Assembly: GCF_001487165.1 (NCBI RefSeq)
Contig: NZ_LN913006.1
Coordinates: 2,634,657-2,698,656, forward strand
DNA: 64,000 bases
Direction: 5' to 3'
Origin: Blautia massiliensis (ex Durand et al. 2017)
GTDB lineage: Bacteria; Bacillota; Clostridia; Lachnospirales; Lachnospiraceae
Below the pieces are notes generated by a model, which ran no database searches, had not been told where the DNA came from, and worked only from the letters and a program-made list of their open reading frames with translations. The translations under genes were made by a program, and so were the position numbers. Positions 973 to 57,970 of the stretch are shown here, one piece after another; the first letter of the stretch is position 1; every line of letters starts with the position of its first letter.

Positions 973-1003
973 AAAGAAAAGAGGCCGCACATGCAGCCTC
1001 TTA
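973..1003 (-). terminator. Terminator of the sulfur assimilation operon
   Basis: On the minus strand AGAGGCTGC-atgt-GCGGCCTCT forms a stem followed by TTTTCTTT, shortly after the cysN stop codon. Confidence 0.8.
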
Positions 1004-1038: not shown

Positions 1039-2724
1039 TCAGATCATCCAGAAATTATCCGTGCAGACAATCCTCCTGTAAGTCTCAAACTTAAACCACT
1101 TATTATGAAACTCCGACTTATTATCAGCAGCCTCAAACTCCCTCAAAAACATCTGATAATCATCATTACTGCGGATCTCCAGGGCAAAACCTCTCTCATC
1201 CACAACAGGAAGCCCCATAAACACATACTCATCCAGCGGAATAATATCCTGCACCCTCTTATCACGGATCAGAACAGCCGCGCTATCCTCCAGAGAAACA
1301 ATATCAAAATAGCCCGGATACTCAAAGCTGTCACCCTCAACAGGCACCACATCCCCTACATGATAAGTCTTAACCTCTTTATCCGCCTTGGAAAGCAGCG
1401 CATTCTCAAGGTTAAAATAAAACTCCTCAAAAACATAACCGCCAACCTTCACATCATCCTTCTGGAAATAAGGCTTCTCCCCCTCAGTATCAACCGATTC
1501 CACAACACCACATGCAGAAGTCATATGACTCACACGGTCAATCAGGATCAGCTCACCAAGAGTCTTATTCCTCTTAAACTCATCCAGCACAACCTTATCA
1601 GAAAGACCGATTTTGCAAAGAGCGATCTCATTCTTCTCGATCGTATCCGCATGCAGATGCTCCCCGGTATTTACATCCGTCTTAAACTCAATACTCTTAA
1701 CCACACCTGCGATCTTCTTGGTACCAAGCTTCACAAGATACTCCTTGCCCACTTCAAGCCTGGAATCATCCATCCATAGAAGCGTAGCCTCAAAGCCCTT
1801 TGCAACAGGGATCTCATTATTATTGGTAAGAACACATCCACGGCTTACATCCACCTCTTTATCCAGCTGAATCGTAACAGCCTGGCCGGCAACAGCCTCC
1901 TCACGATCGTCACTGCCCACCAGGATCGTCTTAACAGCCGCTGTCTCGTTGCTTGGGAGCGTTGTGATGATATCGCCTACATGAACCCGGCCACTCTCGA
2001 TCTGACCCTGGAAACCGCGAAATTCATGGTTTGGACGAGAAACACGCTGAACAGGCAGATAAAACTCGCTGACATTCTCAGCCTCTGAAACATCCACAGT
2101 CTCAAGATGCTCCAGAAGAGCTTTCCCCGTATACCAGGGCATATTCGGAGACTTCTTCGTTACGTTATCACCCTCTGTAGCACTGACAGGAATGATCACA
2201 ACATCCTGAAGCCCCAGAGTCTCAGAAAGCTCATTGATATCCTTTACGATTTCATTAAAACGGCTCTCACTGTAATCAACAAGATCCATCTTGTTAACAG
2301 CAAATACAAAATGATGGATACCCATCAGAGCGCAGATACGTGCATGACGCCTTGTCTGGACCAGAACCCCCTGCTTCGCATCCACAAGAATAATGGAAAG
2401 CTGAGCAAAGGAAGCTCCAACCGCCATGTTCCTTGTATACTCCTCATGTCCGGGAGTATCCGCAACGATAAAGCTTCTTTTATCGGTTGTAAAATAACGA
2501 TACGCAACATCAATGGTGATTCCCTGCTCACGTTCTGCCATCAGGCCATCCAGAAGAAGAGAATAATCAATGGCACCACCTCTGGAACCTACCTTGCTGT
2601 CCAGAAGAAGGGCTTTTTCCTGGTCCGCATATAAAAGCTTGGAATCATAAAGAATATGACCGATCAGTGTAGATTTTCCATCATCTACACTTCCGCAAGT
2701 GATAAATTTCAGTAATCCGCTCAT
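1039..2724 (-). CDS. cysN: Sulfate adenylyltransferase subunit 1 (GTPase, CysN)
   Basis: This is the GTP-hydrolysing subunit that drives ATP + sulfate to APS with CysD. The EF-Tu-like G domain shows GSVDDGKST (residues 11-19), DTPGHEEY (89-96) and NKMD (144-147), followed by the beta-barrel domains. The start at 2724 lies one base after the cysD stop and has GAGAGGGG upstream; an upstream in-frame start inside cysD is less likely. The protein is 561 residues, longer than the roughly 475 of E. coli CysN. The last 130 or so residues are not an APS kinase, because no second P-loop is present, and I do not recognise them. It is the last gene of the operon. Confidence 0.92.
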   Translation of the reverse strand: MSGLLKFITCGSVDDGKSTLIGHILYDSKLLYADQEKALLLDSKVGSRGGAIDYSLLLDGLMAEREQGITIDVAYRYFTTDKRSFIVADTPGHEEYTRNMAVGASFAQLSIILVDAKQGVLVQTRRHARICALMGIHHFVFAVNKMDLVDYSESRFNEIVKDINELSETLGLQDVVIIPVSATEGDNVTKKSPNMPWYTGKALLEHLETVDVSEAENVSEFYLPVQRVSRPNHEFRGFQGQIESGRVHVGDIITTLPSNETAAVKTILVGSDDREEAVAGQAVTIQLDKEVDVSRGCVLTNNNEIPVAKGFEATLLWMDDSRLEVGKEYLVKLGTKKIAGVVKSIEFKTDVNTGEHLHADTIEKNEIALCKIGLSDKVVLDEFKRNKTLGELILIDRVSHMTSACGVVESVDTEGEKPYFQKDDVKVGGYVFEEFYFNLENALLSKADKEVKTYHVGDVVPVEGDSFEYPGYFDIVSLEDSAAVLIRDKRVQDIIPLDEYVFMGLPVVDERGFALEIRSNDDYQMFLREFEAADNKSEFHNKWFKFETYRRIVCTDNFWMI

Positions 2725-2725
2725 C

Positions 2726-3628
2726 CTAGAAGTACCCCTCTCTCTTTCTTTTTTCCATACTTGCAGCTCCGCCGTCGGAATCAATAACACGTGTGGTTCT
2801 CTCAGATTCCACAGAGCTTAAGGTCTCGTCAATGATCTCGTCCAGTGTCTCCGCATCAGACTCGATACCGCCTGTCAGAGGATAGCATCCGAGAGTACGG
2901 AAACGGACCTTTTTCATCTGCGGCTCCTCCCCCGGGTTCAGGCGCATTCTGTCGTCATCCACCATGATAATGTTGCCGTCTCTGTATACAACCGGACGCT
3001 CTTTTGCAAAATAAAGAGGAACGATCGGGATATTTTCTCTCTTAATATACTGCCAGATATCCGTCTCAGTCCAGTTGGAAATCGGGAAAACACGGATGCT
3101 TTCGCCTTTATTGATCTCCGTATTATAAAGCTTCCACATCTCCGGACGCTGGTTCTTCGGATCCCAGGCCTGTTCTGCATTACGGAAGGAGAAGATACGC
3201 TCTTTTGCACGGCTTTTCTCCTCGTCACGACGACCGCCGCCAAAAGCAGCTGTGAAACCATATTTCTTAAGAGCCTGCTTCAGTGCTTGCGTTTTCATGA
3301 TATCTGTGTATGCGGAGCCGCTGTCAAAAGGATTGATACCCTGCTTCACACCATCCTGATTAATGTACTCAAGCATTTCGATTCCCAGATCCTTCGCGGT
3401 TTTGTCACGAAACTCGATCATCTCTTTAAATTTCCATGTTGTATTTACGTGAAGAAACGGAAATGGCGGTTTCTCCGGATAAAAAGCCTTCATTGCAAGA
3501 TGAAGCATTACAGAACTGTCTTTTCCTATAGAATAAAGCATTACCGGCTTCTCGCACTCTGCTGCAACTTCACGGATGATATAAATTGCCTCTGCTTCCA
3601 GCTCATCCAAATGTGATAATCCACTCAT
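2726..3628 (-). CDS. cysD: Sulfate adenylyltransferase subunit 2 (CysD)
   Basis: CysD is the catalytic subunit making adenosine 5'-phosphosulfate from ATP and sulfate. The PP-loop SIGKDSSV is at residues 33-40, and the length (300 aa) is normal for the family. AGGAGG sits directly against a first ATG at 3640, so the second ATG at 3628, about 12 nt away, is preferred. It is followed after one base by cysN. No cysC-type APS kinase or cysH-type reductase is next to it. The APS is therefore probably reduced directly by the upstream AprAB-type enzyme (inference). Confidence 0.93.
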
Positions 3629-3684
3629 ATCTGATCTCATCCTCCTGTTCCGGCCGCCAGAACCGGCAGCACTTATCTTCTGGT

Positions 3685-3996
3685 CTAATATTTATTCGAA
3701 TTCCGTCGATCCACATCGATCACGGATGTAGAACCGTCCGTTTTTGTAATGATCCAATGAAGGATATCCCCTTCGCTTTTTACATTCATGATACTTCCGT
3801 TCCCGCCGATATCCGCACCAAGGAAAAAGTCGATGGCACCGGCTTTACATTCCTTTACACAGGAAACACAGCCCCAGCAATTTTTCGGATATTTCATCAC
3901 GGCTTTTTTGTCTTCCATGACAATCAGGGTTCCCGGACATACTTCACTGCATTTTCTGCAGCCAACACATTTTTTCTGATCAATTCGTATGCTCAT
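3685..3996 (-). CDS. aprB: APS reductase beta subunit-like ferredoxin (AprB type)
   Basis: This small 103-aa protein has two 4Fe-4S binding sets: C10, C13, C16, C20 and C40, C43, C46, C50. In the AprB family the clusters carry electrons to the FAD of AprA for reduction of APS to sulfite and AMP. AGGAGG lies six bases before the start, and the gene overlaps the end of aprA by 17 nt, as expected for a coupled pair. The C-terminal 45 residues lack cysteines and resemble the AprB tail only loosely. No Qmo-type membrane partner is nearby, so the electron donor is unknown. Confidence 0.82.
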
Positions 3997-5692
3997 ATGT
4001 GTCCTCCTTTACAATGTCGCGAAAAATCATCCTGATCTCGCCGTTTTCCAGTTTCGAATTTACATATTTATAAAATTTCTCATCTGTTTCCGGATGATCC
4101 AGATTTTCGTTAAAAGAATGCCATCTGGTCTCTTTGCGGTTTTTCAGATGAGCGATCAGTGAACGGCACACAATGAGACGCTCACGAAGTTCGTATGCAA
4201 ACATCAGCTCATGCATATCTGCTGCCGCTGTTTTTTCGGCAAGAGCCTGAAGCTGAAGGATTTTTTCATCTGCAAGAGCAAGCTGCTTCTCATTAAACTG
4301 ATAATTAGAAGCAATTCCTCCCGCATATTCATCCATGACTTTCTGCATAGCCTCTTCCAGCTCTTCCACGGAAAATGCCGGTGCGTCTTCATTTCGGAAC
4401 TTTTCGTACTGAGAAAGAATTTCCCCTTCCTGAACCTTAATCTCTGTCTCAGTCTGAATATCTGCTTCCTTCAGAGTTCCGGCCTTAAACTGTTTCACCA
4501 TATCCAATGCTGCAAGCTTTCCTTCTGCAAGAGCTCCTGTTACATATTTCTGCGGACATCCACCTGCAACATCACCTGCTGCATACAGCCCCTTTACCGT
4601 GGTTTCACGGCCTGTATTTACCCAGTAGCCGCTGGCTGTATGACCGCCTACGATATACGGCTCTGTTCCCTGGATCTCCACATCCTGCTCGCTGGGACTC
4701 TTTCCGCTTTCGATCCATTTCAGAGTCTGGCTCGGTGCCATGTTGAGATAAGCCTTCAGAAGATCCTCATCCTGTTCCTTCGTAATCCCTGTAGTCTTCA
4801 GGTAACACGGGCCGTGGCCAAGCTGATTTTCCCGAACTGTTCCGTAAACTCTCTCGCTTGTGGTCAGTCCGTATTTTGTCTCATAGATCTCGCCAGCTGC
4901 ATTGATCTGTTTTGCGCCGACACCCTGTGCGATGGTTCCCGTAGGAGCAATGGTATCCTTGCAGCGAAGTGCGATAAAACGCATCTCAAAGGACGTCATC
5001 TCCGCACCTGCCAGGATTCCCATTGCATATCCGGCACCTGTGTTAAACGGCGGATACCACATCTTATGTCTGGAAAATCCCGGATTGTTCGGCTTATAAA
5101 GTCCGGCCGCTCCGCCTGTTGCAGCAAGAACTGCCTTTGCCCGGATAATGTATGCGGTTTCTTCCATAATAGAGAAACCAACCGCTCCGTAAACCTGTCC
5201 GTCTTTTACAAGAAGGTCTGTGATATTTACATAATTCAGAACGTCTACGTTCTCAGCTTTATGAACTGCATCAGCAAGAAGTGGTTTAAAATTTTCACCG
5301 TTGATCTTGATGTTACGGTTTCCTCTGGCTACATAATCGCCATTTTCATCCTTCAGGATCACAAGTCCAAGTTTTTCCATTTTTGCGGTAACTTCGTTGA
5401 AGTTCTCCGCTGCTGTAAGAAGAAGGTCCTGTCTTACGATCCCGGCGGCATCCTTTGTTGCATAATCTACATAATCCTGCGGCTTGCGGCCTTTTACAAT
5501 GTAGGCATTGATTGCATTAACACCTGCTGCCAGACAGCCGCTTCGTCTGATATTTGCTTTTTCTGCGATCAGTACCCTGCCGGCTTTCTGTTCTGAGAGA
5601 ACCAGCGCCGCATAGCAGCCTGCGGTACCTCCGCCTATGATCAGCACATCTGTTGTAATTTCCTTTGTGTTTAATCTGTTTTTCATACTCAT
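3980..5692 (-). CDS. aprA: APS reductase alpha subunit-like flavoprotein (AprA type)
   Basis: This is a flavoprotein of the fumarate reductase/AprA superfamily. An FAD-binding GGGTAG is at residues 20-25, preceded by hydrophobic VLII, and an AATGG motif follows in the middle region. Placed between aprB and the sulfur-carrier genes and upstream of cysDN, it is best read as the catalytic subunit reducing APS to sulfite. At 570 residues it is shorter than classical dissimilatory AprA. The ATG at 5692 overlaps the TGA of the upstream metalloprotease gene; a GTG one codon earlier is possible. An alternative is another FAD-dependent oxidoreductase, but the context argues for APS. Confidence 0.8.
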   Translation of the reverse strand: MSMKNRLNTKEITTDVLIIGGGTAGCYAALVLSEQKAGRVLIAEKANIRRSGCLAAGVNAINAYIVKGRKPQDYVDYATKDAAGIVRQDLLLTAAENFNEVTAKMEKLGLVILKDENGDYVARGNRNIKINGENFKPLLADAVHKAENVDVLNYVNITDLLVKDGQVYGAVGFSIMEETAYIIRAKAVLAATGGAAGLYKPNNPGFSRHKMWYPPFNTGAGYAMGILAGAEMTSFEMRFIALRCKDTIAPTGTIAQGVGAKQINAAGEIYETKYGLTTSERVYGTVRENQLGHGPCYLKTTGITKEQDEDLLKAYLNMAPSQTLKWIESGKSPSEQDVEIQGTEPYIVGGHTASGYWVNTGRETTVKGLYAAGDVAGGCPQKYVTGALAEGKLAALDMVKQFKAGTLKEADIQTETEIKVQEGEILSQYEKFRNEDAPAFSVEELEEAMQKVMDEYAGGIASNYQFNEKQLALADEKILQLQALAEKTAAADMHELMFAYELRERLIVCRSLIAHLKNRKETRWHSFNENLDHPETDEKFYKYVNSKLENGEIRMIFRDIVKEDTYEHTN

Positions 5693-6108
5693 CACTCTGT
5701 TATCTGAAGCTCATGTACAGTTACATTTTTCTCTTTATCTACGCCAAAAGCCTTCAACACCGGATTTTCTGCATCCATAAGGGAGAGGATCAGATATTCT
5801 ATGTTCGGGTCAAATGCAAGTCGTTTATCTTCTTCGGAAGGCCTTGACGGAGACTCCGGATGAGAATGAAAGTTTCCGATCATCTGATATCCGTTCTGAC
5901 GGATATCCTTGATCGCGCTCAGCTGTTCCTTCGGGTCCATGGAAAAGTGTTCGTTGCTTTCATCGATATTTGTCAGCAGATACACCTTCTCGATGGTTTT
6001 TACATCGTCCTCAATGGTCCCGCCCAGAAGGCCGCAGGACTCATTGGGAAGTCCCTTTCTGCAGTGGTCTAATATTTTTTCGTAATCTTCTTTTTTTAAT
6101 TTCAGCAT
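5692..6108 (-). CDS. hcyD: JAMM/MPN+ metalloprotease for sulfur carrier (HcyD/Mec type)
   Basis: This 138-aa zinc protease has the full JAMM signature: E23 in NESCGLLGG and H81, H83, S91, D94 in HSHPESPSRPSEED. In Mycobacterium (Mec) and Wolinella (HcyD) such enzymes trim residues from the end of a ubiquitin-like sulfur carrier or release the sulfurated product. Here the neighbouring carrier ends in GGG-Thr-Arg, which needs trimming to expose a terminal glycine. GGAGG is eight bases before the start. The gene lies between hcyF and aprA. Confidence 0.85.
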   Translation of the reverse strand: MLKLKKEDYEKILDHCRKGLPNESCGLLGGTIEDDVKTIEKVYLLTNIDESNEHFSMDPKEQLSAIKDIRQNGYQMIGNFHSHPESPSRPSEEDKRLAFDPNIEYLILSLMDAENPVLKAFGVDKEKNVTVHELQITE

Positions 6109-6190
6109 TTCGTGGCCTCCAATGGGTTTCTATACTTATTTACAGTATCTGCACCAGCAGACACCTTTTCGTTTCTGTGATCAGTGTTTA

Positions 6191-6997
6191 TTAATGCTTC
6201 AGCTCACACACAGCCTGCTCATAATCGATCAGTTCTGTGATCGTCGGATCATCGCCGCATACCGGGCAATGATGATTCTTCGGAAGCTTCACGGTACGGA
6301 ATGTCATCTTCAGCGCATCGTAGGTAAGAAGTCTTCCTGTAAGAAGATCACCCTGTCCGATGATGTACTTGATGGCTTCCATTGCCTGAAGGCTTCCGAT
6401 CACGCCGCCCATGGCTCCGATCACGCCAGCCTGCTTACAGGTCGGTACGGCGTCCTTTGGTGGCGGGCTCTGGAATGCACATCTGTAGCATGGTCCCTGT
6501 CCCGGGACGTAGGTCATCAGCTGTCCCTGGAAACGGATGATACCTGCATGTGAAAAAGGTTTCTCAGCCATTACACAGGCATCGTTGATCAGGAATTTTG
6601 CAGGGAAGTTGTCTGTTCCATCCAGAATGAAATCGTAATCTTTGATCAGATCCATGATATTGCTGGAATCCACAAACGTGTGATATGTATTTACGGTAAC
6701 GTCCGGGTTGATGGCTCTCATGGTCTCAGCCGCAGACTCTACTTTCAGTTTGCCAACATCTGCAGTTGTGTGGATGACCTGTCTCTGAAGATTGGAAAGA
6801 TCTACCTCATCTGCATCTACGATTCCGATGGTTCCCACACCTGCTGCTGCAAGGTAAAGGGCTGCCGGTGCTCCAAGTCCGCCGGCTCCGATGATAAGAA
6901 CCTTGGCATTCAGAAGCTTTTTCTGGCCTTTTACTCCAACCTCTTTCAGGATGATGTGGCGGGAGTAACGCTCAAGCTGCTCATTTGTAAAAGCCAT
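6191..6997 (-). CDS. hcyF: ThiF/MoeB/HcyF-type E1-like adenylyltransferase
   Basis: This enzyme activates the C-terminal glycine of a sulfur carrier with ATP so that it can be converted to a thiocarboxylate. The nucleotide-binding GAGGLGAP is at 37-44, DGTDN at 126-130, zinc cysteines at C170, C173, C244 and C247, and a candidate catalytic cysteine at C187 (PTCKQAG). The length (268 aa) fits the family. The start overlaps the hcyS stop (TAATG) and has GGAGG upstream. Since no other thiF is visible in this window, it might also activate ThiS (inference). Confidence 0.88.
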   Translation of the reverse strand: MAFTNEQLERYSRHIILKEVGVKGQKKLLNAKVLIIGAGGLGAPAALYLAAAGVGTIGIVDADEVDLSNLQRQVIHTTADVGKLKVESAAETMRAINPDVTVNTYHTFVDSSNIMDLIKDYDFILDGTDNFPAKFLINDACVMAEKPFSHAGIIRFQGQLMTYVPGQGPCYRCAFQSPPPKDAVPTCKQAGVIGAMGGVIGSLQAMEAIKYIIGQGDLLTGRLLTYDALKMTFRTVKLPKNHHCPVCGDDPTITELIDYEQAVCELKH

Positions 6998-7206
6998 TAT
7001 CTTGTGCCTCCTCCCATGTAGTACAGGAATTCAACAACGTCGCCGTCTTTTACAACTGTGTTCGGAACGTCTTCTTTGCTGATGAATTCATCGTTAATGG
7101 TTACGGTTACATACTCAGGACTTTCGATATCCTCTTTCTCAATAAGCTCTGTAAGCTTCAGTCCGTCTTCGTACTCTTTTTTATTTCCTGCAACTGTGAT
7201 TGTCAT
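6997..7206 (-). CDS. hcyS: Ubiquitin-like sulfur carrier protein (HcyS/ThiS family)
   Basis: This 69-residue beta-grasp protein is of the ThiS/MoaD/CysO family. The conserved tail is FLYYMGGG followed by Thr-Arg, so the diglycine is not terminal. That is the pro-form expected if the JAMM protease encoded two genes downstream removes the cap. As in the Wolinella HcyS pathway, the thiocarboxylate would carry sulfur to O-acetylhomoserine. An AGGAGA site precedes the start. It sits between a TusA-like gene and hcyF. Confidence 0.86.
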   Translation of the reverse strand: MTITVAGNKKEYEDGLKLTELIEKEDIESPEYVTVTINDEFISKEDVPNTVVKDGDVVEFLYYMGGGTR

Positions 7207-7218
7207 TTCTCTGTTCTC

Positions 7219-7464
7219 CTATTCTTCAACTTTTCTTACGATCAGTGTATAAGTTCCGTCTTCATTATCTTCAAGTTTCAGGATCTGATGTCCTTCTTCT
7301 TTTACGCTTCTCGGTACATTCTGTACCGGCTCGCCATCGTTCATTTTGATCGCCAGGATCTGTCCGTCGTCCAGTTCCTCAAGTGCTACTTTTGCTTTTA
7401 CAAAAGTTACCGGGCAAACTACATCGGTAATATCTACTGTATCATCAATCTTAATATCAGCCAT
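7219..7464 (-). CDS. TusA/SirA-like sulfur carrier protein
   Basis: This 81-aa protein has the TusA family active-site motif Cys-Pro (VVCPVTFVKAK, C17). TusA-like proteins carry persulfide sulfur between enzymes. It overlaps the end of the sulfite reductase gene by eight bases and precedes hcyS, so it may hand reduced sulfur from the reductase to the carrier (inference). AAGGAG is present upstream. The exact partner cannot be told from sequence. Confidence 0.85.
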   Translation of the reverse strand: MADIKIDDTVDITDVVCPVTFVKAKVALEELDDGQILAIKMNDGEPVQNVPRSVKEEGHQILKLEDNEDGTYTLIVRKVEE

Positions 7465-8320
7465 TGTATGCTCCTTTCAAAACTTCCTGAAGTTTTTCAG
7501 CGCCTACCCGGTCGATGGTAAATTTAAAACGCTCTCCCGGATTTGCATGATCATCAAAAAACTGGATCGCTGCATCGGTCACTCTGAAAAGCTGCTCCTC
7601 AGAGGTGATCAGCGGAAGGAATTCCTGTCCCTTGCTGATGTGATTTCCAAACGTTCCGCCAAAGGAAACGATATATGCTTCGTTTACATCCCATGCATCC
7701 ACCGGACAGGATTTCGCACATCTGCCGCAGTAGTTGCATTTCTCTGTGTCGATCACCAGCTTGTCCTCCTCAAAGGAGATGGCGTTTTCTCTGCAGGCCT
7801 TTTCGCAGACACCACAGTGGATACATGCGTCCTCTTTCCAGCTGACCTGAGCTGCTCCCTTGATTCCTACATCATTCTCCTCTGCCTTCAGACAGTTGTT
7901 CTGACATCCGGTAACACCGAATTTAAATTTATGAGGAAGCTCTCTTCCGAAATATCTTTCATTTAATTTCACTGCAATGTCATAGCTGTTGATATTTCCG
8001 CTTGGACAGACAGCGTTGCCCTGGCAGGCTGTAACTGTACGGACTCTCGGTCCGCAGACACCAGGCTTGCATCCGCCTTTTGCAAGATCATCCTTTACAT
8101 CATCAATATCATCTAATTTAATGAACGGGATCTCAACTCCCTGTCTGGAAGTAAGATGTACATATCCGTCACCGTATTTCTCAGCTACCTCTGCGATCTT
8201 CTTAAGGTTTTCTGCGGTAAGTGTACCGCCTACACAGGCAAGACGAAGAGAAAAATTATTTTTCTGCTTCTGTCTCATGAAACCACCTTTTTTTAATGTA
8301 GCGTAATCTACTTTTGCCAT
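7457..8320 (-). CDS. Small siroheme sulfite reductase with two ferredoxin clusters
   Basis: This 287-aa single-chain sulfite reductase has siroheme-4Fe4S ligand cysteines C99 and C105 (C-x5-C) and C139 and C143 (C-x3-C). An inserted ferredoxin domain carries C166, C169, C172, C176 and C195, C198, C201, C205. It corresponds to the compact anaerobic type seen in clostridia and methanogens, about half the size of E. coli CysI. It should reduce sulfite to sulfide by six electrons from ferredoxin-like donors. GGAGAG precedes the start. The operon context makes an assimilatory role likely. Confidence 0.87.
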   Translation of the reverse strand: MAKVDYATLKKGGFMRQKQKNNFSLRLACVGGTLTAENLKKIAEVAEKYGDGYVHLTSRQGVEIPFIKLDDIDDVKDDLAKGGCKPGVCGPRVRTVTACQGNAVCPSGNINSYDIAVKLNERYFGRELPHKFKFGVTGCQNNCLKAEENDVGIKGAAQVSWKEDACIHCGVCEKACRENAISFEEDKLVIDTEKCNYCGRCAKSCPVDAWDVNEAYIVSFGGTFGNHISKGQEFLPLITSEEQLFRVTDAAIQFFDDHANPGERFKFTIDRVGAEKLQEVLKGAYNG

Positions 8321-8360
8321 AACGAACTCTCCATTTCTCTGCTGGTGCAGCTCTTAGATT

Positions 8361-9599
8361 TTATCGGTTATTTTCTATCGCTTGTTTGAAATCTTCTTTT
8401 AAATCTTCAATATCTTCAATTCCCACACTGATACGGATCAGATCCTCGAATACTCCGGACTGCAGCTTCTCTTCGTCGGAGATGTGTGCCGCGATGGTGG
8501 ATTCCGGATGGATCACCAGTGTCTTCGTATCTCCGATATTGGAGATGATCAGCGGGATCTTCAATGAATTAATAATGGAAAAAGCCTTCTCCTTACTTCC
8601 GGTTCTTACGGTTACGATAGCTCCGTAGCCATTCCTGAACTGCTTTTCCGCAATTTCGTGATAAGGGCTTTCTTCCAGTCCCGGATAATTTACTTCAATG
8701 TCACCACCCAGGCCCTGTAAAAATCTCGCAAGCTCCAGTGCATTGTCACACTGTCTCTGCATTCGAAGTCCCAAGGTTTCCAGTCCCAGGTTATTAAGGA
8801 AAGCATTCTGCGGAGCAAGACACGCGCCAGTGTTCCGGAAAAGTCCGTTTCTAAGCTTGGCGATGTATGCAAATGGTCCGAATTTCCGGTATGGAGCAAG
8901 TCCCGGATATCGGTCAGGGTCCCATTTCAGACCCTTACCACAGACAAGAATACCGCTGATGGCATCACTGCTTCCATTGATATATTTGGAAGAGGAATGA
9001 ACCACAATGTCAGCTCCAAGCTTCAATGGCTGGATCAGATACGGGGTTGCCACCGTGTTGTCTACGATCAGCGGTACGTCATGCTTATGTGCCACTTCCG
9101 CAACTGCCTGGATATCGGTAACATCCAGCTTTGGGTTGCCAATGGTCTCTGCAAAAACAAGTCGCGTCTTCTCTGTGATCTCTGCCTCAAAAGCTTCCGG
9201 CTTATTCTCTTTCACATATTTTACGGAAATCCCGAAAGGCTTCAGATCATCGAACAGTTCCACGGTTCCGCCGTACAGTCCGCAGGCTGCCACGATCTCG
9301 TCTCCCGCCTGAAGAATGTTCAGAAACGCATTGGTCAGCGCTGCCATTCCGGAAGCACAGGCCACACTGCCGATCCCATCCTCCAGCATGGTCACTCTTT
9401 TCTCAAAGGACTCTACCGTAGGATTGTTGATCCTTGTATAGGAGAAGCCCATTTTTTTATTGTCAAAAATTTTCTCCAGGTCTTCCGCGCTGTCATGTCG
9501 GAATGCGCTGCTCTGATAGATTGGAACCTGTGTGGCTCCCTGCGGATATTTCTCGTTGGTGCCGTGGAGCAGTCCTGTATTAAAGCCGTATTCGTTCAT
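8361..9599 (-). CDS. metY: O-acetylhomoserine sulfhydrylase (MetY)
   Basis: This PLP enzyme of the Cys/Met metabolism family makes homocysteine from O-acetylhomoserine and a sulfur donor. The PLP lysine is K205 in HSSSKYINGSS. The length (412 aa) is near the usual 425. The ATG at 9599 has AAGGGA upstream and lies downstream of the promoter at 9629-9657; an in-frame GTG at 9626 would be at or before the transcript start. As first gene of the operon with HcyS/F/D, it probably takes sulfur from the HcyS thiocarboxylate, as shown for Wolinella (inference). Confidence 0.9.
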   Translation of the reverse strand: MNEYGFNTGLLHGTNEKYPQGATQVPIYQSSAFRHDSAEDLEKIFDNKKMGFSYTRINNPTVESFEKRVTMLEDGIGSVACASGMAALTNAFLNILQAGDEIVAACGLYGGTVELFDDLKPFGISVKYVKENKPEAFEAEITEKTRLVFAETIGNPKLDVTDIQAVAEVAHKHDVPLIVDNTVATPYLIQPLKLGADIVVHSSSKYINGSSDAISGILVCGKGLKWDPDRYPGLAPYRKFGPFAYIAKLRNGLFRNTGACLAPQNAFLNNLGLETLGLRMQRQCDNALELARFLQGLGGDIEVNYPGLEESPYHEIAEKQFRNGYGAIVTVRTGSKEKAFSIINSLKIPLIISNIGDTKTLVIHPESTIAAHISDEEKLQSGVFEDLIRISVGIEDIEDLKEDFKQAIENNR

Positions 9600-9628
9600 A
9601 GCCTCTTCCCTTTCTTTTGTTGACACTT

Positions 9629-9657
9629 ATATTAACCTACTATTCATAGTATGTCAA
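9629..9657 (-). promoter_or_regulatory. Promoter of the metY-to-cysN operon with internal dyad
   Basis: On the minus strand TTGACA (9657-9652) and TAATAT (9634-9629) are separated by exactly 17 bases. The spacer contains the dyad ACTAT-ga-ATAGT, a possible operator. Confidence 0.82.
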
Positions 9658-17600: not shown

Positions 17601-17607
17601 CGTAAAT

Positions 17608-17706
17608 TCATCTTATACGTTCCTACGTTGGCATTATCCAAATCAGGTATAAGGGTCGAAGTTGAAGACTTCCTCTCAGCCTGCCATCACAAGCTCCCCT
17701 GTTATT
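17608..17706 (-). ncRNA. TPP (thiamin pyrophosphate) riboswitch
   Basis: The minus strand carries the THI-box landmarks in order: ACAGGGGAGC, GGCTGAGAGG, ACCCTTATACCTGATTTGG and ATAATGCCAACGTAGGAA. It precedes thiS-thiG-thiH and should shut the operon off when thiamin pyrophosphate is bound. Confidence 0.96.
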
Positions 17707-17840
17707 TACATGGTTTAGTATAAGGCGAATTATGATCAATGTCAAGAGCATTAAATTTTCTCACAATAGTTCCAATTTGTTCTAAAATATAGTACACTAT
17801 AATTGCTGCCAACCCTCCAGCAGAAAGGAGGTGAAGTCCA

Positions 17841-25855: not shown

Positions 25856-25858
25856 TTT
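25830..25858. terminator. Bidirectional terminator between hydrolase B and cysA
   Basis: AAAAAATGCCGC-tccc-GCGGCATTTTTTT is a strong hairpin formed by the last copy of the local repeat. Confidence 0.85.
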
Positions 25859-26915
25859 ATATCACTAACCAATCCTCAACCATAGCTGTATTATGTAGCA
25901 GTACTGCCTCATTTCCCTTCGTTACAAAAATCCTCTGCACAAACACATCCACAACTTCGCCTTCCCGGACGGGTTCTTCGTCAAGGCTTCTTCTGGCGCT
26001 GAGTGTGGTGTTTCCTACACGGACTTTCAGTTCCAGGCTGCTGCCGCGGAATGCGACTCGTTCTACGATGCCCTCTGTTGCGGAGCTTTTATATTTCTGT
26101 TCCTCGTTCTTCTTAGTCACTTTTACAAACTCCGGACGGACAATGGCTTTTTCGCCTCCCGGAACTTCCTCGAAGTGATTGAACACCTGGTAATCATCGA
26201 TCACAGAAGTCTGCCCGAAAAATCCCGCCGTAAACGCAGTATCCGGATTCTGATAAACCTCCAGTGGAGTTCCCTTCTGCTCGATCCGTCCACGGTTGGT
26301 AATAATAATTTCATCCGCCACCTCAATAGCCTCATCCTGGTCATGGGTAACAAAAATACTGGTGATCCCCAGCTTCTCGATCATATCCTTCAACCAACTT
26401 CGAAGCTCCGTACGAATCTTTGCATCGATCGCCGCAAAAGGCTCATCCAGAAGGAGAAGCTGCGGATTCGGAGCCAGAGCCCGGGCAAAAGCAACTCGCT
26501 GTCTCTGACCACCGGACATCTGACTCGGATATCTTTTCTCCAGGCCCTTCAGCCCGATCAGCTCTACCAGTTCCATAACCCTCTGCTTAATATACTTCTT
26601 GTCCGCCTTCTGCACCTTCAGGCCAAATGCAATATTATCATACACCGTCATATACCGGAAGAGAGCATAATTCTGGAACACAAATCCAATGCCTCGCTCG
26701 CTGGCAGGCACATCATTGACCACTCTTCCGTCGATGATGATCTCCCCGCTGTCTGGCTGCTCCAGACCGGCGATCATACGGAGAATCGTAGTTTTTCCGC
26801 TTCCGCTGGGCCCCAGAAGACCAATCAGCTTCCCCTTTTCGATACCAAAGCTTACGTTATCAGATGCCTTGTAATCCCCATATGTTTTATTGATATTTTT
26901 TAACTCAACGTACAT
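25857..26915 (-). CDS. cysA: Sulfate ABC transporter ATP-binding protein (CysA)
   Basis: This ATPase energises sulfate/thiosulfate import. Walker A is GPSGSGKT (35-42). The signature MSGGQRQRVAFARAL, Walker B LLLLDEPFAAID and the switch histidine in FVTHDQDEA are present. A C-terminal regulatory domain follows, and the total of 352 aa is normal. The start at 26915 (MYVELKNINK) overlaps the end of cysW by 11 bases. It is the last gene of sbp-cysT-cysW-cysA. Confidence 0.94.
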   Translation of the reverse strand: MYVELKNINKTYGDYKASDNVSFGIEKGKLIGLLGPSGSGKTTILRMIAGLEQPDSGEIIIDGRVVNDVPASERGIGFVFQNYALFRYMTVYDNIAFGLKVQKADKKYIKQRVMELVELIGLKGLEKRYPSQMSGGQRQRVAFARALAPNPQLLLLDEPFAAIDAKIRTELRSWLKDMIEKLGITSIFVTHDQDEAIEVADEIIITNRGRIEQKGTPLEVYQNPDTAFTAGFFGQTSVIDDYQVFNHFEEVPGGEKAIVRPEFVKVTKKNEEQKYKSSATEGIVERVAFRGSSLELKVRVGNTTLSARRSLDEEPVREGEVVDVFVQRIFVTKGNEAVLLHNTAMVEDWLVI

Positions 26916-27741
26916 CGCCTTTTTCCCCCTTTCCTTTATGCTCCAGAACATTTCTTGCGATCAGAAGGATCACCGCCAGGATCACCAGAATCGAAGAAAC
27001 CGCAAATGCCGGAACATACTGGAATTCGTTATAAAGAATTTCCACATGCAGCGGAAGTGTATTTGTTTTTCCACGGAGATGTCCGGACAGTACGGACACA
27101 GCTCCAAACTCTCCCATGGCTCTGGCTGTACACAGCACAACACCATAGAGAAATGCCCACTTGATATGCGGAAATGTCACCTTGGTAAAAATCGTCCAGC
27201 CTTTTGCTCCCATCAGTGCTGCCGCCTCTTCCTCATCGGACCCTATGGATTCCAGAACCGGTATGATCTCTCTGGACACAAATGGAAACGTGACAAAGAT
27301 CGTCGCTAGGATAATTCCCGGAACTGCAAACACGATCTGTATCCCTGCACTTTCAAGAACAGAATAAAGAGGACTCTGCTTTCCAAAAACCAGGATATAG
27401 ATAAGACCTGCGATAACCGGTGATACTGTAACCGGAACATCGATCAAAGTGGTAAGGAGCTTTTTTCCCCGAAAATGAAATCTGGTCATTGCCCATGCCG
27501 CACACAGACCAAAGATCGTGTTACATACAACAGCCGCAGCCGTCGCCCCAATGGTCAGCTTCAGCGCTTTCAGCGTGTACTCATCTGTCACCGCCTGCAC
27601 ATAGCACTGCCAGCCCTTGCTCAGTGCCTGGGTTACAACAACCACCAGAGGCAGTACCAGCATCACAAAAAGAAAGATCACGGAAATCCCGATAAGGATC
27701 CATTTCACCGGCCCGGAAGCCTGCTTCTTTTTTTCATCCAT
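26905..27741 (-). CDS. cysW: Sulfate ABC transporter permease (CysW)
   Basis: This 278-residue inner-membrane permease has about six membrane segments and the binding-protein-dependent transport motif (EEEAAALMGAKGWTIFTKVT) that docks to CysA. It forms the channel with CysT. The start overlaps the cysT stop (TAATG). Confidence 0.93.
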   Translation of the reverse strand: MDEKKKQASGPVKWILIGISVIFLFVMLVLPLVVVVTQALSKGWQCYVQAVTDEYTLKALKLTIGATAAAVVCNTIFGLCAAWAMTRFHFRGKKLLTTLIDVPVTVSPVIAGLIYILVFGKQSPLYSVLESAGIQIVFAVPGIILATIFVTFPFVSREIIPVLESIGSDEEEAAALMGAKGWTIFTKVTFPHIKWAFLYGVVLCTARAMGEFGAVSVLSGHLRGKTNTLPLHVEILYNEFQYVPAFAVSSILVILAVILLIARNVLEHKGKGEKGDVR

Positions 27742-28580
27742 TATGCATCCCTCCCTCTGATACGTTTCGTATTTCTTGCCTGCACCAGATTCACACCAAA
27801 CAGGATCAGAAATGATACTGCCAGTGTAACCAGTGCGATAGCTGTTGCGCTTTCATAGTCAAACTCCTGAAGCTTTGACATGATGATCAGCGGCGTGATC
27901 TCTGTATAGTAAGGCTTGTTTCCTGCGATAAAAACAACGCTTCCGTATTCTCCCAGGCAACGTCCGAAGGCAAGTCCCGCCCCGGAAAGCATTGCCGGCA
28001 GAAGCTCAGGAAGAATAACTCTGCGAAAAACGGTGAATGGCTTTGCACCCATGACACGAGCCGCCTCCTCATAGGAACCGTCCAGCTTCTCCAGAACCGG
28101 CTGAATGGCCCTGACCACAAAAGGGATTCCCACAAAGATCAATGCCACCGTGATACCGATTCTGGTATATGCGATCTTAATACCGAAATTTGCAAAAAAG
28201 CTTCCCACCAGACCTTTATCGGATGTCAGGGATGTCAGTGAGATACCGGCAACTGCAGTCGGCAGTGCGAAAGGCAGCTCGATCATTCCATCCATGATCC
28301 TTTTTCCCGGAAAATCATATCTTACCAGCACCCACGCAAGGACCAGGCCCATAATAGCATTGATCACTGTGGCCGCAAATGCGGTAATAAAGCTTACATA
28401 GAATCCGGACAAAACCCTCGGCCGTGTGATCACCTCAATAAATTCCCGAAAACCCAGCCGCGCCGAATATACTGCCAAAGACGCAAGAGGGATCAGAACT
28501 ACGATACTCAGCATCGCCAAAGTCACTCCCATTGTCAGTCCAAAGCCTGGTATCACACGTTTACTCTGTTGTTTCTTCAT
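27741..28580 (-). CDS. cysT: Sulfate ABC transporter permease (CysT/CysU)
   Basis: This 279-residue permease has about six membrane segments. Its EAA docking loop is YEEAARVMGAKPFTVFRRVI, and it carries the GRCLGEYGSVVFI motif of the sulfate/molybdate permease group. It pairs with CysW. It lies 59 bases after the binding-protein gene on the same transcript, and its stop overlaps the cysW start. Confidence 0.93.
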   Translation of the reverse strand: MKKQQSKRVIPGFGLTMGVTLAMLSIVVLIPLASLAVYSARLGFREFIEVITRPRVLSGFYVSFITAFAATVINAIMGLVLAWVLVRYDFPGKRIMDGMIELPFALPTAVAGISLTSLTSDKGLVGSFFANFGIKIAYTRIGITVALIFVGIPFVVRAIQPVLEKLDGSYEEAARVMGAKPFTVFRRVILPELLPAMLSGAGLAFGRCLGEYGSVVFIAGNKPYYTEITPLIIMSKLQEFDYESATAIALVTLAVSFLILFGVNLVQARNTKRIRGRDA

Positions 28581-28639
28581 TTCTGTCTCCCCTCTTTTCT
28601 ATTCTAAGTTTCTGATCTGTTACAAAATCTCAGGCTCTT

Positions 28640-29665
28640 CTACTCTTCATAGATCTCATCAAACACTCCGCCGTCTGCGAAATGCTTTTTCTGAACTGCA
28701 TCCCAGCCGCCGAAATCTTTGATCGTTGTCAGCTTCACCTTCAGGTTAAAAGTATCTACATGCTTTTTCAGGATCGTCTGATCAACCGGCCTATAGTAAT
28801 TCTCCGCGATCAGCTCCTGAGCTTCATCGGAATACAGATATTTCAGATATGCTTTCGCTGCTTCTGCATTATCATGCTTTTTCACATTTTCATCTACAAC
28901 AGCAACGGATGGCTGTGCCAGGATACTGATGCCCGGCGTTACGATCTCGTAATCATCCGGATTGTCCCTTACAGAAAGAAACGCTTCATTTTCCCAGGCG
29001 ATCAGCACATCCCCCTGCCCGTTTTCCACGAAAGAGGTTGTGGCACCTCTTGCTCCGGAATCCAGAACCAGGACATTTTTGTAAAGCTTCTTGATAAAGG
29101 CTTTCATCTCTGTCTCGTTGCCGTTATATTTCTCATTGGCATAAGCCCAGGCTGCCATGTAATTCCAGCGGGCACCACCGGAGGTTTTCGGATTGGGAGT
29201 GATCACCCCCACACCATCCTTTGTCAGATCATCCCAGTCGTGGATATTCTTCGGATTTCCCTTCCGAACAAGAAATACAATGGTGGAAGTATAAGGAGCA
29301 CTGTCATCCGGATATTCATCGATCCAGCCCTTGTCGATCAGACCGGCATTCCGGATCGCATCGATATCATATTCCAGTGCAAGTGTCGCCACATCTGCAG
29401 GAAGTCCGTTGGAAATCTCAAGGGCTTGCTTTCCGGAACCGCCATGAGACTGAATCACATCCACACTCTGACCTGTTTCCTCTTTCCAATATTTTGAAAA
29501 AATCTTATTATATGCTTCATAAAATTCTCTGGTCGGATCATAGGACACATTGATGATCTCCACATGATTTTTATCCTTTGTATTGTTTCCCGATACTGCA
29601 AAAGTTCCTGCCAGTACCACTGCTGCCAGTGTGATACAGACACCTGCAATGCGTTTTCTTTTCAT
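28640..29665 (-). CDS. sbp: Sulfate-binding protein of the cysTWA operon
   Basis: This 341-aa extracellular solute-binding protein has a signal-type hydrophobic N-terminus (IAGVCITLAAVVLAGTFAVS) and the signatures [15 protein letters not shown] and SHGGSGKQA. It is strongly similar along its length to the orphan copy at 13428-14444. It is first in the transporter operon and lies downstream of the LacI-type regulator gene on the same strand. AAAGGAG precedes the start. Confidence 0.94.
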   Translation of the reverse strand: MKRKRIAGVCITLAAVVLAGTFAVSGNNTKDKNHVEIINVSYDPTREFYEAYNKIFSKYWKEETGQSVDVIQSHGGSGKQALEISNGLPADVATLALEYDIDAIRNAGLIDKGWIDEYPDDSAPYTSTIVFLVRKGNPKNIHDWDDLTKDGVGVITPNPKTSGGARWNYMAAWAYANEKYNGNETEMKAFIKKLYKNVLVLDSGARGATTSFVENGQGDVLIAWENEAFLSVRDNPDDYEIVTPGISILAQPSVAVVDENVKKHDNAEAAKAYLKYLYSDEAQELIAENYYRPVDQTILKKHVDTFNLKVKLTTIKDFGGWDAVQKKHFADGGVFDEIYEE

Positions 29666-56571: not shown

Positions 56572-57774
56572 TTATTCGTAGCTGTTGCAAAGATACTTCT
56601 TCAGAGTCTCAACCTTGTCCAGATGCTCCCATGGAAGATCAACATCTGTACGGCCGAAATGACCATAAGCAGCAGTCTGCTTGTAGATCGGACGGCGAAG
56701 GTCAAGCATCTTGATGATACCAGCCGGACGAAGATCAAAATTCTCACGAACGATCTCAACAAGCTTAGTCTCAGAAAGCTTACCTGTTCCGAAGGTATTC
56801 ACACTGACAGAAGTCGGATGCGCAACACCGATCGCATAGGAAAGCTGGATCTCACACTTGTCAGCAAGACCGGCTGCAACAATGTTCTTTGCAACATAAC
56901 GTGCAGCATAAGCAGCAGAACGGTCAACCTTTGTGCAATCCTTACCGGAAAAAGCACCGCCGCCGTGACGTCCTGTTCCGCCGTAGGTATCAACGATGAT
57001 CTTACGACCTGTCAGACCACTGTCACCGTGAGGTCCGCCGATAACAAAACGACCTGTCGGATTGATGAAATACTTCGTATCCGCATCAACCATATCAGCC
57101 GGAATGATCGCATCAAAAACATACTTCTTAATATCCTCATGGATCTGCTCCTGAGTAACATCCGGATCATGCTGTGTAGAGCATACAACAGCATCGATTC
57201 TCTTCGGCTTGCCGGCCTCATCATACTCAACAGTAACCTGAGTCTTTCCATCCGGTCTTAAATATTTCAGAGTGCCGTCCTTACGAACCTTTGTCAGCTG
57301 CTGAGCAAGCTTGTGAGCCATGTTGATGGCATATGGCATATACTCCTCAGTCTCATTGGAAGCATAACCAAACTGAAGACCCTGGTCACCGGCACCGATG
57401 GAATCCAGCTCGTCCTCATTCATATCGTCCTCTTTCTGCTCAAGAGCCTTGTCAACACCCATAGCGATATCTGTGGACTGCTTGTCAAGTGATGTGATAA
57501 CCGCACAGGTATCTGCATCAAAGCCATAATCCGCATTGTCATATCCGATCTCACGGATCGTATCGCGAACGATCTTCTGGATATCAACATTAGCCTTGGT
57601 TGTGATCTCGCCCATAACAAGTACAAGACCTGTTGTAGTAGCAGTCTCACATGCAACACGGCTCATCGGATCCTGTGCCATCATAGCATCAAGGATCGCA
57701 TCGGAAATAGAGTCGCAGACCTTGTCAGGATGACCCTCAGTTACAGATTCAGATGTAAATAAAATTTTCTCCAT
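56572..57774 (-). CDS. metK: S-adenosylmethionine synthetase (MetK)
   Basis: MetK makes SAM from ATP and methionine. Its signatures are [15 protein letters not shown] at the N-terminus, [11 protein letters not shown] in the middle and [16 protein letters not shown]. The length of 400 aa is normal. The ATG at 57774 (MEKILFTSE) has AGGAG eight bases upstream. A longer in-frame reading would run into the riboswitch terminator. It links to the methionine route encoded at 1-9.6 kb. Confidence 0.97.
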
Positions 57775-57812
57775 GATCTTCTCCTTTTGTAATAAAACAA
57801 TGGTTATATACA

Positions 57813-57843
57813 TAAAAAACAGCCCGTACAATCCGGACTGTTT
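57813..57843 (-). terminator. Terminator of the SAM riboswitch
   Basis: AAACAGTCCGG-attgta-CGGGCTGTTT followed by a T run on the minus strand, between aptamer and metK. Confidence 0.85.
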
Positions 57844-57857
57844 AAATTCTGTAAACA

Positions 57858-57970
57858 ATCCTCTTATTGTTCGATTGCTCGCTCAGGTTGGCACCTTCCT
57901 GGATTCTCCGGGGTTGCCGTGGCTTCACAGATCCTTTGTATCTCCACCACTCTGAATAAAAGGCTATCTT
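57858..57970 (-). ncRNA. SAM-I (S-box) riboswitch
   Basis: The minus strand carries AGAGTGGTGGAG, CTGTGAAGCCACGGCAACC and AAGGTGCCAACCTG in order, closed by a P1 stem (CTTTTATT/AATAAGAG). Bound SAM should favour the terminator and lower metK expression. Confidence 0.95.

Follow-up and report, generated by a model that had tools for sequence, protein, structure and literature searches.

A sulfate-to-homocysteine operon of Blautia massiliensis that probably links an assimilatory, APS-reducing AprAB to a Wolinella-type HcyS route

The gene aprA serves as a marker of dissimilatory sulfate reduction, and the chemistry of the sulfur carrier HcyS was reportedly worked out in Wolinella succinogenes by Krishnamoorthy and Begley in 2011. 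Gene neighbourhoods of the HcyS kind are described in passages of PMC1779556 (Iyer, Burroughs and Aravind 2006), where a role in sulfate assimilation is predicted, and the Wolinella pathway is cited in parts of PMC6225789 and PMC5764234. As to the reductase, part of PMC10322725 (Jespersen and Wagner) gives measurements by which the AprAB-like enzyme of Methanothermococcus thermolithotrophicus (MtPAPSR) prefers 3′-phosphoadenosine 5′-phosphosulfate (PAPS), assigns this preference to loop 104–123, names Ser122, Lys120 and Arg121 as PAPS residues, and states that Gln145 of the Archaeoglobus fulgidus adenosine 5′-phosphosulfate (APS) reductase would clash with the 3′-phosphate of PAPS; a passage of PMC11328384 (Microbiome 2024) lists AprAB as an assimilatory option. 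Here we analyse a 64,000-nucleotide stretch of the Blautia massiliensis genome (the window), the minus strand of which carries ten open reading frames (ORFs) at 1039–9599 for MetY, Sir, TusA, HcyS, HcyF, HcyD, AprA, AprB, CysD and CysN.

We put at roughly three in four the probability that these genes form a sulfate-to-homocysteine operon, in which an assimilatory, APS-reducing AprAB feeds a Wolinella-type thiocarboxylate route. The evidence is gene identity at family level, conserved motifs and gene linkage, and a genome in which neither APS kinase nor CysH was detected. Pfam and NCBIfam scans support all ten names at family level:

8361..9599, minus strand: MetY, pyridoxal 5′-phosphate enzyme of the O-acetylhomoserine sulfhydrylase type, 412 aa (PF01053, 394 bits)
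7457..8320, minus strand: Sir, small siroheme/4Fe-4S sulfite reductase with a two-cluster ferredoxin insert, 287 aa (PF01077, PF03460, Fer4)
7219..7464, minus strand: TusA-like sulfur carrier with Cys-Pro motif, 81 aa (PF01206, 74.6 bits)
6997..7206, minus strand: HcyS, ThiS-like sulfur carrier, 69 aa, C-terminus GGGTR (PF02597 and TIGR01683, over cut-off)
6191..6997, minus strand: HcyF, E1-like adenylyltransferase (ThiF/MoeB-type), 268 aa (PF00899, 295 bits)
5692..6108, minus strand: HcyD, JAB/JAMM metalloprotease (Prok-JAB), 138 aa (PF14464)
3980..5692, minus strand: AprA, flavin adenine dinucleotide (FAD) subunit of an assimilatory-branch APS reductase, about 570 aa (NF005331, 915 bits; loop R-G-N-R-N)
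3685..3996, minus strand: AprB, ferredoxin subunit with two [4Fe-4S] clusters, 103 aa (closest solved chain 8a8o_C)
2726..3640, minus strand: CysD, ATP sulfurylase small subunit, 304 aa (TIGR02039, 486.8 bits, cut-off 396.6)
1039..2724, minus strand: CysN, ATP sulfurylase GTPase subunit, 561 aa from ATG (TIGR02034, 550 bits, cut-off 336)

The original prediction described a tightly spaced ten-gene order with overlaps, and the ORF positions bear this out: Sir/TusA, HcyS/HcyF and AprA/AprB overlap, as do HcyD/AprA if AprA starts at the ATG at 5692, and the largest intergenic gap, preceding HcyD, is 82 bases. For metY we favour the ATG at 9599 as start over a longer GTG alternative at 9626. The C-x5-C...C-x3-C motif of Sir is present in the window protein and in 58 of 60 relatives, and AprB has eight cysteines in two clusters, with a CWGC motif.

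A comparative search for this order, also proposed in the original prediction, did find it elsewhere. Genome contigs were searched with ten aligned AprA sequences, and the best 80 of at least 580 relatives are the named loci used here; AprA of the window is 98% identical to that of Blautia schinkii and 97% to that of Blautia luti, which places the organism in or near Blautia. AprA, AprB, CysD and CysN are consecutive in 75 of the 80 loci (with gaps below 300 bases in 73), the ten-gene order occurs in 22, and the two modules are exchanged in eight, counts that disregard other genes between the ten and include some loci cut by contig ends. Since the order recurs in other loci, it is more than chance. 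Neighbouring genes vary: a thioredoxin gene lies inside the TusA–HcyS gap in L063, the cluster of L049 is preceded by a sulfate ATP-binding cassette (ABC) transporter and a regulator of the Rrf2 family, CysK adjoins the cluster in L051, and L036, L042, L063 and L110 have similar genes, judged from N-termini only. In the Megasphaera locus L110 (16574–19379), the AprAB–CysDN cluster has AsrA and a further gene resembling a sulfite reductase in its vicinity, and the locus has no HcyS module. Three short and very divergent AprA-like proteins on a long tree branch (L214, L218 and L219; 528–535 aa) have HcyS, HcyF, Sir and MetY close by and APS kinase in the genome.

Further parts of a pathway are encoded elsewhere in this genome (3.7 Mb, completeness rating 100%), including a complete sulfate transporter gene set in the same window, 16 kb from the operon:

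25857..29665, minus strand: sulfate ABC transporter, CysA, CysW, CysT and sulfate-binding protein (TIGR00968, TIGR02140, TIGR02139 and TIGR00971, over cut-off)

An acetyl-type MetA is encoded outside the operon (482 bits, cut-off 460.5). CysD is the single PF01507 match genome-wide, and therefore no CysH was detected; nor does the genome give any PF01583 match for APS kinase (cysC), a family that an equal search recovered in 11 of 14 control genomes. The claimed lack of cysH and cysC is thus upheld by genome-wide searches, whereas that of cysK holds for the operon only, a CysK being encoded elsewhere. QmoABC is not in the operon; no genome-wide search for it was made. A second NIR_SIR protein of about 310 residues matches several models, including AsrC, DsrA and DsrB, but stays under the curated cut-off of each.

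In the pathway that we propose, sulfate would enter through the ABC transporter and be converted to APS by CysDN; AprAB, with its FAD and two [4Fe-4S] clusters, would reduce APS rather than PAPS to sulfite, the electron donor being, as a guess, reduced ferredoxin; and Sir would reduce sulfite to sulfide. HcyD would remove the residues of HcyS past the glycines, HcyF would adenylate the new C-terminus, and sulfide, perhaps by way of TusA, would convert adenylated HcyS to the thiocarboxylate. MetY would then couple this thiocarboxylate to O-acetylhomoserine from MetA, and HcyD would free homocysteine. All of these reactions are inferred, as are the electron donor and the choice of APS instead of PAPS. 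A role of AprAB in assimilation, as first suggested, fits the sulfate transporter, the acetyl-type MetA, the recurrence of these genes together and the searches that detected neither CysH nor APS kinase. Of the complete line originally envisaged, a sulfate-to-homocysteine operon in which AprAB substitutes for CysH is supported, but the transporter, MetA and CysK are encoded outside it.

The HcyS module fits its proposed role. HcyS scores 55 bits on the ThiS-like model (cut-off 37), and 55 of 57 relatives have one to six residues beyond the last glycine, as expected if a JAB peptidase matures the carrier. Among relatives of at least 40% identity, the HcyD JAMM motif HxHx7SxxD is present in all 57, as in the window, and the TusA Cys-Pro motif in all 59. 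HcyF has no rhodanese domain, PF00899 being the only domain found in the Pfam scan. A tailed ThiS-like carrier, a JAMM peptidase, an E1-like enzyme of this form and a MetY below the TIGR01326 cut-off are thus found in one operon, and family scans, motifs and the C-terminal tail agree with the Wolinella-type HcyS/HcyD/HcyF/MetY set that had been claimed; catalysis, thiocarboxylate formation on HcyS and an HcyS–homocysteine adduct are predicted. It is rather unlikely that the module serves another product, thiamine or cysteine, while MetY makes homocysteine from free sulfide. HcyS does exceed the ThiS cut-off, CysK is in the genome and beside the cluster in L051, and positions 17603–17710 of the window (minus strand) hold a thiamine pyrophosphate (TPP) riboswitch; however, the residues past the glycines would need removal by a protease, the JAB protein shares an operon with MetY, and a passage of PMC1779556 states that JAB genes do not occur in thiamine and molybdopterin operons.

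AprA passes PRK06854.1-2 (NF005331) well above its cut-off of 557 bits and fails to reach that of the dissimilatory model TIGR02061 (332 bits, cut-off 642), as AprB does for TIGR02060 (49 bits, cut-off 136). The closest solved chains are those of MtPAPSR, 8a8o_A for AprA (597 bits vs 299 for the A. fulgidus APS reductase) and 8a8o_C for AprB (88 bits vs 40), and trees place AprA outside the dissimilatory clade. AprAB thus belongs with the MtPAPSR-like assimilatory branch, and the original assignment to the dissimilatory type fails. Equivalents of A. fulgidus Asn74, Trp234 and Arg265 occur in all 176 aligned AprA rows and that of His398 in 175; some of these positions we take to be catalytic. 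At loop positions 120–122 the window protein has Asn-Arg-Asn vs Lys-Arg-Ser in MtPAPSR, so that Asn stands at the position of MtPAPSR Ser122 and A. fulgidus Gln145. Gln at this position is restricted to the 13-row dissimilatory clade.

We compared residue 122 with APS-kinase status, which was available for the window's own genome, 50 of the 80 named loci, and 10 class-sample and 73 phylum-sample genomes. Kinases were counted from 100 bits, which dropped G528 (41.7 bits); for G457 the status is known and no AprA locus was fetched. Genomes carry handles, and the same genome may occur under two. Loop and PF01583 status are both known for 131 genomes, of which 124 enter the per-genome table (seven with mixed AprA types are left out, and identical sequences are counted once). 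APS kinase is present in 26 genomes with Ser122 and absent from one, itself only 63% complete, while it is present in seven genomes with Asn122 and absent from 73. Genomes with and without kinase number one and seven for Asp, two and four for Gln, two and none for Ala, and one and none for Gly. The Ser/Asn association has a Fisher p of 2e-17, phylogeny ignored. The kinase lies within 3 kb of aprA in 22 of 32 Ser-type rows and 2 of 113 Asn-type rows. When 556 columns of 132 non-dissimilatory rows are ranked by how strongly they associate with the kinase, column 122 comes second, as it also does in 63 rows thinned at 75% identity; column 376 comes first, with Lys where the kinase is present and Gln where it is absent.

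These data bear on the possibility that AprAB, like MtPAPSR, reduces PAPS, made in this case by an APS kinase that has diverged beyond the reach of the PF01583 model. Its closest solved relative is MtPAPSR, Arg121, one of the three proposed PAPS residues, is retained, and two Asn-type relatives (L183 and L189) lie right beside APS kinase. Set against this are the lack of any match in a PF01583 search that was positive in 11 of 14 control genomes, the contrast between Asn-type and Ser-type genomes in kinase content, and the replacement of both Lys120 and Ser122, and we regard a PAPS reductase as improbable here. AprAB working in energy-yielding sulfate reduction or, reversed, in sulfite oxidation is hardly credible and was dropped, since despite a family and conserved residues shared with dissimilatory enzymes AprAB misses the dissimilatory cut-offs, has its nearest structures in MtPAPSR and falls outside the dissimilatory clade, is linked to CysDN and amino-acid genes, and both NIR_SIR proteins of the genome score far below the DsrA and DsrB cut-offs.

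Several observations weigh against an APS-reducing AprAB feeding the HcyS route. With L183 and L189, six further Asn-type rows, with the kinase elsewhere in the genome, make eight rows from genomes that carry APS kinase, so Asn alone is no proof of APS use. For kinase association column 120 is only 48th and column 121 only 385th, and within Arg121 rows column 122 is seventh. Independent-pair tests on trees yield three to six pairs and no significance: of four pairs in the 144-row tree, 0.8 support an association of kinase and Ser and 0.4 contradict it, and in a second tree the figures are 1.8 and 0.0 of three. The Ser/Asn data hold only a handful of independent changes. MetY scores 449.6 bits on TIGR01326, under the cut-off of 495.1. 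All gaps are below 300 bases in only two of the 22 same-order loci, both Blautia (L046 and L047), the others having an extra 300–700 bases before HcyS and/or 0.5–6.7 kb around HcyD and AprA; because the uninterrupted order is confined to Blautia in this set, our confidence is slightly lowered. In loci of the L163 type the binding protein of the adjoining transporter belongs to the SsuA (sulfonate) family instead of the sulfate-binding one. Finally, the operon enzymes are perhaps not the sole route, given the second sulfite-reductase-like protein and CysK, and with CysK present sulfide may have sinks besides homocysteine. A strict rule that Asn122 means APS is weakened by the eight rows and the non-significant pair tests; the APS reading for the window is drawn mainly from the missing kinase, with residue 122 as supporting evidence.

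Loop columns were excluded from both trees, and Gln rows served as the root; the first tree holds 144 of 174 AprA rows and two references (30 named loci without APS-kinase status being left out), and the second omits six AprA rows (five long-branch, one truncated) as well as near-identical rows. In the rooted trees Trp121 rows with Asn or Asp diverge before those with Arg121, and the Asn rows that include the window (72 in the first tree) form a single branch within an otherwise Ser- or Gly-type set, with support of 98 in FastTree and 91 in IQ-TREE (Shimodaira–Hasegawa-like approximate likelihood ratio test). The order of the deepest branches in the first tree, where long branches meet at the outgroup, is unsure. 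This pattern hints at a reversion from PAPS to APS, though the independent changes are few, the pair tests lack significance and L183 and L189 point the opposite way. Thirteen AprA-like proteins with Trp121-Asp122 (L211, L215, L217 and L220–L229) form a clade of their own; ten of them are in genomes without APS kinase, and some of the genomes also carry a dissimilatory AprA alongside.

CysN of the window has a C-terminal extension (about 1042–1482, minus strand) of roughly 135–150 residues past the family-model match, which spans residues 27–430 of the 583-aa ORF. Scans found no Pfam or NCBIfam domain in it; its predicted fold has a pLDDT (predicted local distance difference test) of 94, its best sequence match in the PDB has E 0.09, Foldseek gave no match at E 0.001 or better, and the best VIA-align match has Z 3.2 over 40 residues, so that no clear PDB relative emerged. 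A profile of the extension matches 84 of 104 CysN proteins near AprA, and the 20 without a match comprise all eight tested beside Ser122-type AprA and 12 beside Asn-type. It is possible, at somewhat less than even odds, that the clostridial Asn122 branch is APS-specific and arose inside the PAPS branch by change of Ser122 to Asn and loss of APS kinase, that most of its CysN gained a new C-terminal domain, perhaps one that hands APS to AprAB (a speculation), and that the reversion came without return to the dissimilatory active site, with Arg121 kept and no Gln. Our confidence in this proposal is lowered by the 12 unmatched CysN on the Asn side, of which three or more are fragments.

The original prediction also claimed one clear promoter and, although the best-scoring of 18 promoter-like sites in the region does precede metY, 13.1 such sites are expected by chance, so that this one is suggestive only. 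Terminator-like hairpins number ten, vs 7.5 expected.

9629..9657, minus strand: promoter-like site upstream of metY, sigma-70-like, TTGACA-17-TAATAT (10/12 consensus)
979..1002, minus strand: terminator-like hairpin 3′ of cysN, 10-pair stem and 4-base loop

Upstream of metY there is no Rfam match at gathering score. An S-adenosylmethionine (SAM) riboswitch lies at 57861–57962 (minus strand), directly upstream of the ORF at 56572–57858, which by eye we take to resemble the SAM synthetase MetK.

AprA proteins over the NF005331 cut-off occur in 11 of 291 class-sample genomes and in 65 of 398 phylum-sample genomes (the window's genome counted in both), and because so many phylum-sample genomes carry this type, surveys that count aprA in the gut or in sediments can mistake ordinary sulfate assimilators for dissimilatory sulfate reducers. 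In a part of PMC10322725, Jespersen and Wagner propose exchange of residues 120–122 as a test of substrate choice; both loop forms seem to occur naturally, with and without APS kinase, and the open substrate question becomes testable. Among open-licence papers we found no description of an AprAB–HcyS operon without APS kinase or of a link between the residue and the kinase, which is no proof of absence. If our reading is true, common gut commensals would turn sulfate into methionine with no need for PAPS and no formation of its toxic by-product 3′-phosphoadenosine 5′-phosphate (PAP).

With the Wolinella succinogenes cluster the operon presumably shares a tailed ThiS-like carrier, a JAB peptidase, an E1-like enzyme, MetY, a sulfite reductase and sulfate activation genes. 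It appears to differ in that activated sulfate would be reduced by AprAB, and in that its HcyS tail is GTR or TR, not the single Ala reported for Wolinella. Dissimilatory AprAB (A. fulgidus 1jnr/2fja, Desulfovibrio gigas 3gyx) is of the same family, with Asn74, Trp234, Arg265 and His398 conserved, but AprA and AprB of the window are shorter, lack Gln145 and stay under the family cut-offs. MtPAPSR (PDB 8a8o) is closer, being alike in AprAB architecture, assimilatory role and R-G-x-R loop and unlike in having K-R-S for N-R-N at 120–122, whereas the window's AprAB comes from a genome without detected APS kinase and is linked to CysDN and HcyS genes. In neighbourhood class 4e, as one row of PMC1779556 gives it, a PAPS reductase and an adenylylsulfate kinase are listed, in contrast to AprAB and no kinase in the window. 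Operons of this class were described as early as 2006, and the general idea is known; the form in the window is a variant of it.

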